A stretch of 64,000 bases of DNA. Source: Armatimonadota bacterium. Its GTDB lineage: Bacteria; Sysuimicrobiota; Sysuimicrobiia; Sysuimicrobiales; Humicultoraceae. Under the pieces are notes generated by a model, which made no database searches, was not told where the DNA came from, and saw nothing but the letters and a program-made list of their open reading frames with translations. Positions 56,480-60,383 of this stretch are shown here, piece after piece (position 1 is the first letter of the stretch; each line of letters opens with the position of its first letter). The stretch spans positions 1,674,429 through 1,738,428 of the forward strand of contig JAVKHP010000001.1 of the NCBI GenBank assembly GCA_031459855.1, in the 5' to 3' direction. The position numbers were made by a program, and so were the translations under genes.

Positions 56480-57247
56480 CTAGAATGGCGTCGTGCCCGC
56501 GGCGACGGTCACGAGCGCCCAGGCGACGAGCGCTGCGCCTGCGGGTTTCGCCAGGCGCCTGCCCCAGGGCATCGTACGTTCCGCCGTCATCAGGGCTCCC
56601 AGCCCGAGCATCCACCCCAGGTGCGCGACCCCCACCGCGAACATCACCAGCATCAGCGTCCAGCAGCAGCCGACACAGAAGAGACCGTGGTGCAACCCCA
56701 GGGCCCACGCCTCCCGGCCGGGGGCGCTGCCGCGCCAGCGTCCGGCGACGAAGGCCAGCGGCGAACGGCACACGGCAAGGCAGCGCTCCTTCAGCCTGGT
56801 GAACTGGTACGCGCCCGCTGCCAGCAGGACCGCAGGCGGGAGCAGGGCGTCCAGCCCGGCGACGCGCTCGGCTACCGCGTGCACGACGGTGTCTCCTGCC
56901 AGCGCCGCCGCGCCCACCGCCGCCCACATGGTCAGATAGCCCGCGCCGAGGCGCGCCAGCAGCCCTGCACGCCCGGGCCGCGCCGCCACCATGCGGCGGA
57001 ACAGGGTGAGCAGTGGCAGGCTGCCGGGGAGCATCATGGCCACGGTCATGACGAGCCAGCCGACGAGGAACACGGCCGCCCGGGAGGCCGGGGCTGGAGC
57101 CACCGCCCCGGCCTCCCGGTGGCTGAGCCAGATCGCGTGCGGCGATGCACCCCACCACGCCATCACCAGCCATGCCGCGCCGATCAGCACCACGAGCGCC
57201 AGCCGGTACCAGCGGGCGTCGTCGGGGGTGCGGAACGCACCGATCAC
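56480..57247 (-). CDS. DUF2182 membrane protein
   Basis: This 255-aa protein has about six membrane segments. Family landmarks are the MTVAMMLPGSLPLL segment, YQFTRLKERCLAVCRSPLAF with two cysteines, and HHGLFCVGCCWTLMLVMFAV, a Cys-Cys pair in a membrane helix. The C-terminal AERTMPWGRRLAKPAG is also typical. DUF2182 proteins are predicted metal-binding membrane proteins and often lie beside DUF1326 genes, as here. Function unknown. Confidence 0.88.
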   Translation of the reverse strand: MIGAFRTPDDARWYRLALVVLIGAAWLVMAWWGASPHAIWLSHREAGAVAPAPASRAAVFLVGWLVMTVAMMLPGSLPLLTLFRRMVAARPGRAGLLARLGAGYLTMWAAVGAAALAGDTVVHAVAERVAGLDALLPPAVLLAAGAYQFTRLKERCLAVCRSPLAFVAGRWRGSAPGREAWALGLHHGLFCVGCCWTLMLVMFAVGVAHLGWMLGLGALMTAERTMPWGRRLAKPAGAALVAWALVTVAAGTTPF

Positions 57248-57265: not shown

Positions 57266-57868
57266 TCAGGCAGTGAACCGAAACGGTCCGAGCACCGCGT
57301 TGCGCCCCTGGTACTCCCAGTGGATGCGGTGCTGCGGCACGTCGGCCCGGAACGAGGTCGCTTTGCCGACCGTGGCGGCAGACCCGGGAATGGTGGAGAA
57401 CACGCTGTCCACCAGCTTCGTGGGGTGCCCCTGGAGGTCGGTGAGGGGTTCCATCTCGCTGGCCACGGCGTCGCCGATCCTGATGTGGCCCTTGCCGTCA
57501 CGGAAGCTGAAGTCGATGGGCGCGTCGTAGACGCCCAACACCTCGCCGACCAGCGGCGCCAGGTCGGCGAGCGGGCCGCCCAGCCTACCGGTGTGCGCTG
57601 CCAGGATGGCCTCCTTCTGCTGCTGGGTCGCCCGGCTGTCGACGAAGACCACCGCCTTCCAGTTGCCCTTGAGGACGTTCCCGGGAATCTGGACCGCCAG
57701 GGCCAGCGTCAGACCGGCCACGTCGACGCCGCCGATCTGCCCGCGGTCGTAATGGTACGCGATGAGGCCCTGGCAGGCCCCGCCGTCGGGGTCCTGCCCC
57801 ACCCAGCAGGGGCACACCGCCGCACACGAGCACGCTTCCAGCATCTGCCCTTCCAGTGCGTATCCCAT
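57266..57868 (-). CDS. DUF1326 domain protein
   Basis: This 200-aa protein starts at the ATG of MGYALEGQMLEACSCAAVCP, preceded by GGGGGGAG. The N terminus holds a cysteine-rich signature C-S-C-x-x-x-C-P-C, and GQIGGVDVAGLTLALAVQIP follows. The end, WEYQGRNAVLGPFRFTA, is typical of the family. Such proteins may bind a metal or thiol ligand. It is 18 bp upstream of the DUF2182 gene in the same orientation and likely functions with it. Confidence 0.88.
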   Translation of the reverse strand: MGYALEGQMLEACSCAAVCPCWVGQDPDGGACQGLIAYHYDRGQIGGVDVAGLTLALAVQIPGNVLKGNWKAVVFVDSRATQQQKEAILAAHTGRLGGPLADLAPLVGEVLGVYDAPIDFSFRDGKGHIRIGDAVASEMEPLTDLQGHPTKLVDSVFSTIPGSAATVGKATSFRADVPQHRIHWEYQGRNAVLGPFRFTA

Positions 57869-58054
57869 GGCGCTCCCCCCTATGCGGGGCCCCGGAGATC
57901 GTCGCGTTCGCGGGGCCCGCAGCGTATCGTATCGAGCAACGATCGCGGATCGGTCTCCCAATGGCCGATCGGCCGATGGTGGTCTGCGCCCCTACCCGGT
58001 GCCGCACCGTGCACCCCGGGCGGGGCGCTCAGGCGGCGCGCCGTCGGCACGACG

Positions 58055-58639
58055 CTACGCTGGCTGCGTCCCGTCGCCCAGGACCGCCTCGACCAGGTCG
58101 GCCTGCTCCAGGAAGAACGGGTCGGTCTCGACGCCGAGCGCCTCGTAGACCCGGCTGCGCAGCGCGCGCAGCGTGGCCCACACCGCCACGTCGATGATGG
58201 CGCCGTCGTCGAGGCCGACGGCCCGCAGCCGGTCGACCTGTGCTGCCACGGGGTGCCCGGCGGCCGCCGCCAGGGCGTAGTCCAGGATGGCCACGGTGCG
58301 CGCGTCGAGTCCGGCGGTGCGGTAGTCGTGGAGCACGGCGCGCACGCGATCCAGGCCGCCCAGGTCGCGCTCGACGTCGACGGCGTAGACCAGCACGCAG
58401 TACGTCGAGCGCAGGCGGTGGGCCACCAGCAGGCTGATCAACCGGCGCTCGTGCGGGGTGAGCGCCGAGACCTGCTTCACGGCTGCCGTGAAGGCGTCCA
58501 GCGCGGTGGCCAGCTCAGGCCGCAGCGACAGCGCCCGGGTGGCCTCCATGACGAATCCCAGCCGTGCCAGGTCGGCTTCGTAGGCCTGCCGCAAGGCCCC
58601 CGTCACGTCGTTCTCGTCCAGCGTGCGCACCCAGGGCAT
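58055..58639 (-). CDS. AhpD-like / carboxymuconolactone decarboxylase family protein without CxxC
   Basis: The 194-aa all-helical protein resembles peroxidase-related AhpD-like proteins (MPWVRTLDENDVTGALRQAY, LTPHERRLISLLVAHRL, a late FFLEQADLVEAVLG). The active-site region expected to read C-x-x-C-x-x-x-H is STYCVLVYAVDV, so the second Cys and the His are absent. Peroxidase activity is therefore doubtful. It is the last gene downstream of the sigma/anti-sigma/methyltransferase cluster. Confidence 0.78.
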   Translation of the reverse strand: MPWVRTLDENDVTGALRQAYEADLARLGFVMEATRALSLRPELATALDAFTAAVKQVSALTPHERRLISLLVAHRLRSTYCVLVYAVDVERDLGGLDRVRAVLHDYRTAGLDARTVAILDYALAAAAGHPVAAQVDRLRAVGLDDGAIIDVAVWATLRALRSRVYEALGVETDPFFLEQADLVEAVLGDGTQPA

Positions 58640-58729: not shown

Positions 58730-59560
58730 TCACCCCCGCGGCTTGCGCGCCGAGAAGATCACCGAGCGCGCCACGTGCGGCTGGCGCTCCGGGGGGATGA
58801 GGCGGCGCATGAGCGCGATCAGTTCCGGGGTGAACAACGGGTACTGCTCGCACTCGTCCACGCCGAACGGCAGCTCCTCCCCCCGCGCGATCTCGACGAA
58901 CCCGATCTTCTGCAGCTTGCTGACGAAGACACGCTCCGCCAGGGCGCCCGAGAGTCAGCCCGCCCACGCGGCGGCGCTGGTCAGCACCTGCGGGGGCAGG
59001 TCCTCGTCCACCACGATGTCCGCCACCGCCATCCGGCCGCCTGGCCGCAGGATGCGGAACACCTCGGCGAAGGCCCGCGACTTGCGCGGCGAGAGGTTGA
59101 TCACGCCGTTGCTGATGGCGACGTCCACGCTCGCGTCGGGCAGGGGGATCGCTTCGATCTCGCCGCGCAGCCACTCCACGTTGGTCACACCGGCCGCCTC
59201 GGCGTTGCGGGCGGCCACCGCCAGCATCTCCGGCAGCATGTCCAGCCCGATGGCCCTGCCGTCCGGCGCCACCGCGTGCGCCGCGAGGATCGTGTCGATC
59301 CCACCGCCGCAGCCCAGGTCGATGACGACCTCGCCGGGGGCGAGCGCCGCCGCCCGCACGGGGTTCCCCACACCCAGGGCCTGCGCGATGGCGCCCGGCG
59401 GGAGCAGGCGCAGCTGCTCTGCGGTGTAGAGGCGCTCGGCCACGCTGGTCGTGGTGCCGATGACGGCGCGGTAGGCCTGCCGGACGAGGTCGCGGATCCC
59501 CTCCTGGTCCAGCAGATCGTCGGTAGTGCGCACGGCCGGGTGGGGCACGTGGTGGCTCAT
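58730..59560 (-). CDS. arsM: Arsenite methyltransferase-like protein with in-frame TGA (candidate selenoprotein)
   Basis: This 276-codon gene has a TGA at codon 202 (58957-58955). Before it are ALGVGNPVRAAAL, the SAM motif VVIDLGCGGGIDT (residues 79-90), GVINLSPRKSRAFAEVFRIL and SAAAWAG. After the TGA the same frame continues for 74 codons with clear family sequence (LSGALAERVFVSKLQKIGFV, later CEQYPLFTPELIALMRRL and VIFSARKP) and a normal stop at 58730. Relatives have Cys where the TGA lies, corresponding to the As(III)-binding Cys174 of the Cyanidioschyzon ArsM. Selenocysteine insertion is the favoured reading; nonsense mutation or base error is the alternative. The start overlaps the anti-sigma stop (ATGA). 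Confidence 0.8.
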
Positions 59561-59796
59561 CGCTGCTCTCCCAGGCTCCTGACGAAGGCCTCGAGCTTGT
59601 GGCGGGTCTCCGGCGGGAGCGTCACCGCCGGCCCCTCCTGCCGCAGGCGCGTGCGCAGCTGCTGGGCGAACTCCAGCTCCCCGCAGCAGTGGCGGCACAG
59701 GCCGAGGTGTTCTTCCAGCTCGCGCTCCTCGACGCGACCGAGGTTGCGGTCGAGGTACTCCCACAGGCGTGCCACGGCGTCCTTACAGCTGATCAC
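59557..59796 (-). CDS. Zinc-finger (ZAS-type) anti-sigma factor
   Basis: This 79-aa protein starts at a GTG overlapping the sigma-factor stop (GTGA). ISCKDAVARLWEYLDRNLG, then EEHLGLCRHCCGELEF, gives the zf-HC2 pattern H-x-x-x-C-x-x-C with an upstream Cys. No membrane segment follows, so it is a soluble anti-sigma factor, possibly redox- or metal-sensitive through its cysteines. It is overlapped in turn by the methyltransferase gene. Confidence 0.88.
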   Translation of the reverse strand: MISCKDAVARLWEYLDRNLGRVEERELEEHLGLCRHCCGELEFAQQLRTRLRQEGPAVTLPPETRHKLEAFVRSLGEQR

Positions 59797-60383
59797 GTGG
59801 ACCCCTCCCGGGGCGGACTCAAGAGCCGGTGGCGCTGCGCGTACTCCCAGAGCTCCCGTTCCAGCTGGCGGCGGCCACGGTGCAGCCAGGACAGGACGGT
59901 GCCCACCGGCCGGCCGGTGATCTCGGCGATCTCGCGTGCCTTGTACCCGTAGATGTAGGCAAGGATGAGGGCCACGCGGTGCAGCGGCGGGACTTGCTGC
60001 AGGACGTCGAGGATGCGGGCGTCGTCGAAGAGCTCGAGGAAGTCGAGGTGCACGCGGTCGGAGTAGGGGAAGGGGTCGTCCTCGACGATGGTGTCGAAGA
60101 GGTCGAAGCGGTCGTCGCCCGACTCCGTGGCGGGCGCGTGCGCGTCGGCATCGACGCGGTCGTAGTACGCGCGGGTGAGGATGCGCGTGAGCCACACCCG
60201 CGGACGGTCACGGTTGCGCAGGCCCGCAAAGCCCCGGAACGCGCGCAGCAGGGCGTCCTGCACGAGGTCCTCGGCGGCGGTCCGGTTGCCGCACAGCCGC
60301 ACCGCGACCGCGTACAGGTAGTCCAGGTGCGGCCGGACGACGTCTTCGAAGGTCGTGCGGGGTACGGACGAGAGCTCGGCCAT
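59793..60383 (-). CDS. ECF-type RNA polymerase sigma factor
   Basis: The 196-aa protein has sigma region 2 (HLDYLYAVAVRLCGNRTAAE, DLVQDALLRAFRGFAGL, RVWLTRILTRAYYD) and region 4 (VPPLHRVALILAYIYGYKAR, EIAEITGRPVGTVLSWLHRG). It is followed by an overlapping anti-sigma gene. Group assignment is not possible by eye, but it is SigR/RpoE-like in layout. It probably transcribes this operon and stress or metal-response genes. Confidence 0.93.
   Translation of the reverse strand: MAELSSVPRTTFEDVVRPHLDYLYAVAVRLCGNRTAAEDLVQDALLRAFRGFAGLRNRDRPRVWLTRILTRAYYDRVDADAHAPATESGDDRFDLFDTIVEDDPFPYSDRVHLDFLELFDDARILDVLQQVPPLHRVALILAYIYGYKAREIAEITGRPVGTVLSWLHRGRRQLERELWEYAQRHRLLSPPREGST

Follow-up and report, generated by a model that had tools for sequence, protein, structure and literature searches.

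Is a gene that a TGA codon appears to split into two pieces a broken arsenite methyltransferase gene, or does it encode an intact selenoprotein, and what would such a protein act upon? The question arises in the window, a 64,000-nucleotide stretch of the genome of an Armatimonadota bacterium (GTDB phylum Sysuimicrobiota), in which the initial annotation had proposed that the TGA of an ArsM-like frame is read as selenocysteine (Sec) and puts a selenolate where the enzyme binds As(III).

An in-frame TGA at the position of a conserved ArsM cysteine

The minus-strand frame runs from 59560 to 58730 and comprises 201 codons, the TGA at 58957-58955, 74 sense codons and a terminal stop, which is itself a TGA, at 58732-58730. 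Our reading is identical to the original one, which had seen SAAAWAG, the TGA, 74 codons and a proper stop. Domain assignment identifies the read-through product as a class I SAM methyltransferase of 276 residues. The TGA lies in the context AAWAG-U-LSGAL and aligns with the Cys of the CxxGAL motif, previously recognized as a conserved ArsM cysteine, which corresponds to Cys224 of CmArsM. The gene and the elements discussed in this and the following section are:

58730..59560, minus strand: gene for a putative SAM methyltransferase with the ArsM fold and Sec (276 aa including U202)
58955..58957, minus strand: TGA codon predicted to be read as selenocysteine (U202, the CmArsM Cys224 position)
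58920..58942, minus strand: candidate SECIS hairpin with a 9-bp stem (CUGGCGGAG/CUUCGUCAG) and the loop CGUGU, delineated by comparison and synonymous shuffles

The fold predicted for the full-length product has a mean pLDDT of 93.9, with block values of 95-98 across residues 201-276, and its closest PDB structures are those of ArsM/AS3MT. Since residues 203-276 belong to this confidently predicted fold, a product terminating at the TGA would miss the last strands of the domain. The sequence following the TGA is kept in several genomes, in proteins that are 66-81% identical over their whole length and have a TGA or a Cys codon in the same column. This conservation among relatives, together with the predicted fold, in which the downstream segment is built into the domain, argues that the TGA is not there by chance.

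Within the phylum, 11 further intact genes from 10 genomes carry a TGA in the same column (identity of 67-81% in clade A and 48-55% in clade B), and the relative from Bacterium HR32 has TGC in its place. Dozens of actinobacterial genes, forming two paralogue groups in the class of a relative labelled Nitriliruptorales (L036), also have a TGA at this site. The alignment of homologues suggested by the initial annotation hence returned either TGA or Cys codons: the residue is Sec or Cys in 107 of the 107 homologues read and is never Trp. The gene thus has an in-frame UGA that is aligned with Cys and followed by conserved coding sequence, as expected for a selenoprotein. A plasmid search with one of the paralogues gave matches annotated as methyltransferases or ArsM.

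A SECIS hairpin and the machinery for selenocysteine insertion

A CUC...GAG / CGC...GCG stem had originally been drawn right after the TGA. The conserved hairpin is a different one, found at 58942-58920, which spans 13-35 nt after the UGA and exposes a CGUGU apical loop at 58933-58929, 22 nt past the UGA. The free fold of a 66-nt region has no excess stability (z +0.57), and we therefore used comparison and synonymous-codon shuffles. A hairpin is present in all 51 scorable Sec genes (one of the 52 was left out as N-masked), with a loop beginning 17-25 nt past the UGA. Synonymous shuffling gave a mean z of -2.12 for Sec genes, against -0.17 for Cys genes of the same clade and -0.37 for canonical ArsM; the Mann-Whitney p for Sec versus Cys genes is 6e-13, a value that overstates independence because the homologues are related. 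For the window gene alone, the shuffle fractions were 0.07 and 0.11 in two runs; the single-gene signal is modest, and the strength comes from the comparison.

Codon usage delineates the same element. In clade A Sec genes, codons 5-7 and 9-11 following the UGA (nt 13-33) have invariant third positions, the third position of the loop codon scores 0.89, and third positions vary on either side of the hairpin; those of the Cys genes are variable over the same stretch. The CGUG[UC] loop lies at +22 in clade A; in the paralogue group it is found at +17, which puts it in another reading frame. In the latter group, pair 11-27 is G-C in 12 of 27 genes and C-G in 14, a compensatory swap which combines a Gly/Ala change with a matching synonymous change. 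The clade B hairpin has a different loop (GGA), and its 8-bp stem includes one compensatory pair. The UGA of the host selD gene is followed by GGCGUA-CGUGU-UGCGCC, with the same loop, as read by eye. A conserved bSECIS hairpin is therefore located just 3′ of the UGA, and the CGUG[UC] loop, which is common to selD, could serve in searches for additional selenoproteins of these bacteria. Another TGA accompanied by a CGTG-loop hairpin, at +43537, was rejected as a chance occurrence, being out of frame within an ABC permease gene.

The host genome (3.19 Mb, 97.7% complete) has the complete machinery, since a search for selA, selB, selC and selD, as advised by the initial annotation, retrieved all four. 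SelC is a tRNA-Sec with a UCA anticodon (ARAGORN, anticodon TCA), selB matches its profile with 349 bits and is adjoined by selA, and selD matches with 388 bits and is itself a Sec form. The latter gene (L016, G000:C1:1149867-1150790) has the Sec motif ACAG-U-ASK. No Sec formate dehydrogenase was found in this genome, as its TIGR01591 matches are free of in-frame stops.

The distribution of selB across genomes provides a natural test. It was not found in four genomes of genus g20, which belongs to the same phylum; one of these (G037, HR32) has the Cys form of the methyltransferase, and all that is left in another (G040) is a remnant, where a piece of the sigma gene runs into residues 141-274 and the TGA is retained. 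The remnant is located at 6598-7169 of L085, with a break near the contig end where an assembly fault is possible. Counting the genome of the window, selB is present in 10 of the 11 phylum genomes with intact TGA genes, and the lone selB-less case (G011) is a genome of 72% completeness. The link is weaker in the actinobacterial class, where selB was detected in 20 of 29 TGA genomes versus 15 of 37 others (p 0.03). We note that genome incompleteness may account for the lack of selB, at the cut-offs used, in nine of the 29 actinobacterial TGA genomes and in G011. In two genomes (G084:C88, L146, and G086:C376, L121), a convergent selB gene directly adjoins the Sec methyltransferase gene.

These data bear on two explanations that do without selenocysteine. 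One base change, through a sequencing error or a nonsense change in a pseudogene, would also yield a single in-frame TGA; this origin is extremely improbable given that many genomes, each assembled separately, share this TGA and the conserved sequence beyond it, and that the SECIS is conserved. Decay after the TGA, which the initial annotation had named as evidence against selenocysteine, is confined to the G040 copy from the genus without selB, and intact relatives keep the sequence. Reassignment of UGA, or its reading through as Trp or Cys independently of the Sec machinery, has an equally negligible probability, because UGA is the ordinary stop of the methyltransferase gene and of its neighbors, the tRNA-Sec(UCA), selA and selB are present, and no homologue has Trp at the site. 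The sel genes, the site occupied by TGA or Cys only, the SECIS hairpin and the switch to Cys or loss of the gene where selB is missing all back the original proposal. The apparently stop-broken gene very probably encodes a selenoprotein, in which SelB and tRNA-Sec(UCA), directed by the hairpin at 58942-58920, would decode the UGA at 58957-58955 as selenocysteine.

Arsenic ligands and relationship to known methyltransferases

ArsM binds As(III) through Cys72, Cys174 and Cys224. Its C72A variant has lost methylation of As(III) and retains that of MAs(III), the C174A and C224A variants methylate neither, and DMAs(III) is bound by one Cys (PMC3877260). In the window protein, the three positions correspond to Val64, Gly152 and U202, and position 202 is the sole invariant Cys/Sec column among 39 aligned subfamily members. 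The protein has the ArsM-type class I SAM methyltransferase fold and falls short of the definition of ArsM as having at least three of the four conserved Cys 44, 72, 174 and 224 (PMC5552862). It scores 240.2 bits with the NCBIfam ArsM model NF008823, below the curated cut-off of 263, whereas four of the five canonical paralogues tested pass and the fifth is short by 0.4 bits.

The ligand sets sort the homologues into two types. Gly174 and the lack of Cys72 characterize 77 of the 107 homologues, with Sec (52) or Cys (25) at the 224 position; the other 30 have both Cys72 and Cys174, and all of them have Cys at 224 (Sec in 0 of 30). The restriction of Sec to the Gly174 subfamily corresponds to a Fisher p of 1e-11, calculated with relatedness ignored. 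In the tree, a branch with an SH-aLRT value of 87 sets the Gly type apart, and at least four Sec/Cys changes are needed within this type. A separate Cys-type ArsM (L030) is encoded in the same genome as the window gene.

With Cys72 and Cys174 lost, the name arsenite methyltransferase given in the initial annotation fails a defining test, and the NF008823 score and the inactivity of C174 mutants also speak against it. The accompanying idea of a selenolate at the ArsM As(III) site holds for the 224 position, which is Sec, and does not extend to the 72 and 174 positions, which are Val and Gly. To judge from its sequence, the window protein probably does not methylate ordinary arsenite and may carry out the same chemistry as ArsM on a substrate needing one ligand.

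Sec-containing ArsM is already listed as a selenoprotein family, and what is new here is a distinctive member with its single-ligand site, operon and taxa. Reviews list arsenite methyltransferase (UxxG) as a selenoprotein, attributed to Fomenko et al. 2007 in PMC13188914; they also list three multi-domain Sec methyltransferases. The published UxxG protein (NF008823, WP_011987699.1) likewise combines the ArsM fold with Sec at CxxG(AL); the window protein differs from it by scoring under the NF008823 cut-off, and its lack of Cys72 and Cys174 may be shared by WP_011987699.1. The NF041537 (ArsM_AhpD_UU), NF041536 (ArsM_DUF2284_UU) and NF047649 (MTase_UXPK_star) families also have Sec (UxxG) methyltransferase domains. 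Their members are multi-Sec, two-domain proteins, whereas the window protein is stand-alone with one Sec and scores 180.2, 161 and 171 bits against cut-offs of 510, 575 and 460, respectively. It accordingly lies outside ArsM_AhpD_UU, which is defined by a fused AhpD domain, several Sec and 510 bits; the window locus instead has a separate AhpD-like gene downstream. NF041537 is the best model match of an actinobacterial Sec paralogue (L140). Canonical ArsM/AS3MT enzymes (CmArsM, 4FR0 and 6CX6; human AS3MT, 8XT7) have the fold and SAM site in common with the window protein and differ from it at Cys174 (Gly), Cys72 (Val) and Cys224 (Sec).

Several gene arrangements and C-terminal extensions were observed among the relatives. 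In actinobacterial relatives, tandem Gly174-type methyltransferases occur at L036 1186-3120, L037 3001-4494 and L038 3001-5092, and the L036 pair consists of one Cys and one Sec methyltransferase. The Cys forms L090, L092, L095, L097, L099 and L107 of the actinobacterial class have a C-terminal cupin extension (checked against Pfam for L090) and a CMDC end. The Sec methyltransferases L103 and L122 have a C-terminal TusA-like stretch, which in L103 matches Pfam TusA with 25 bits, below the cut-off.

Operon context and candidate substrates

The methyltransferase gene is flanked by the following genes, and its start overlaps the stop of the anti-sigma factor gene (ATGA):

59793..60383, minus strand: ECF sigma factor (Sigma70_r2, Sigma70_r4_2), whose gene heads the conserved operon
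59557..59796, minus strand: zf-HC2 zinc anti-sigma factor, RsrA-like
58055..58639, minus strand: AhpD/carboxymuconolactone decarboxylase-like, peroxidase-related protein with no Sec
57266..57871, minus strand: DUF1326 protein, downstream operon gene
56480..57247, minus strand: DUF2182/PpoB2-type membrane protein (Pfam: copper chaperone), downstream operon gene

The order sigma factor, anti-sigma factor, methyltransferase is kept in two phyla, namely the host phylum and the actinobacterial loci L036-L038; clade B methyltransferase genes stand outside such an operon. OsmC and cupin genes neighbor the operon in relatives, and one relative has a heavy-metal ATPase close by. As in SigR/RsrA-type modules, an ECF sigma gene lies next to one for a zf-HC2 anti-sigma similar to RsrA; the window anti-sigma scores 43 bits, below the RsrA equivalog cut-off of 62.5. 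The methyltransferase likely belongs to a stress regulon, responding to metals or to thiols and peroxide.

With U202 at the Cys224 position and the other As ligands gone, the active site would contain a single selenolate. We envision that the selenolate captures a soft electrophile having one exchangeable ligand and offers it to SAM for methyl transfer; as a preferred guess, the substrate could for example be an arsenical with two methyl groups, an organomercurial or some related metalloid species. Expression would probably be controlled by the adjacent ECF sigma/zinc anti-sigma pair, resembling SigR/RsrA thiol-stress control, and operon order suggests that the AhpD-like and DUF1326/DUF2182 proteins act alongside. 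In its most general form, this proposal describes a widespread Gly174 clade (Sysuimicrobiota-like and Nitriliruptoria-like) in which the di- or trithiol As site became a single-selenolate site and whose members methylate soft substrates that are mono-coordinated, for example dimethylarsenite or an organomercurial, under redox-sensing sigma/anti-sigma control, with repeated Sec/Cys exchange. We put it forward as a tentative possibility.

The same context can be read as that of a thiol- or peroxide-stress enzyme, in which Sec would serve as a nucleophile, redox-active or open to alkylation, and the methylated substrate would be a small thiol or selenol or another organic electrophile. The RsrA-like anti-sigma and ECF sigma genes upstream, the AhpD-like gene downstream and the nearby OsmC and cupin genes of relatives make this a serious candidate, to which we give somewhat less than an even chance: the DUF1326/DUF2182 genes, with their copper-chaperone Pfam assignment, and the heavy-metal ATPase of one relative suggest metals, and the motif surrounding U202 has been retained along with the ArsM fold. 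An ordinary As(III) methyltransferase in which Sec merely replaces Cys224 agrees with the nearest structures and the top-scoring family model, all ArsM, and with the listing of Sec at the same site of arsenite methyltransferase in reviews. It is nevertheless unlikely, since the protein has no equivalents of Cys72 and Cys174 and no other conserved Cys, misses the cut-off that most canonical paralogues pass, comes from a genome already equipped with a Cys-type ArsM, and shares the lack of Cys174 with the C174A variant, which methylates neither As(III) nor MAs(III).

A literature search combining Nitriliruptor and selenocysteine found no paper. Our analysis adds a group of stand-alone Sec methyltransferases from two phyla, most of which are probably truncated at the UGA by standard annotation. 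Sec occurs in these lineages only in an ArsM-like subfamily stripped of the other As ligands, which raises the question of whether it compensates for the missing second thiolate or marks a different substrate. If the published Sec-ArsM members all have Gly at 174, then Sec-ArsM in general would be a subfamily acting on substrates other than As(III).
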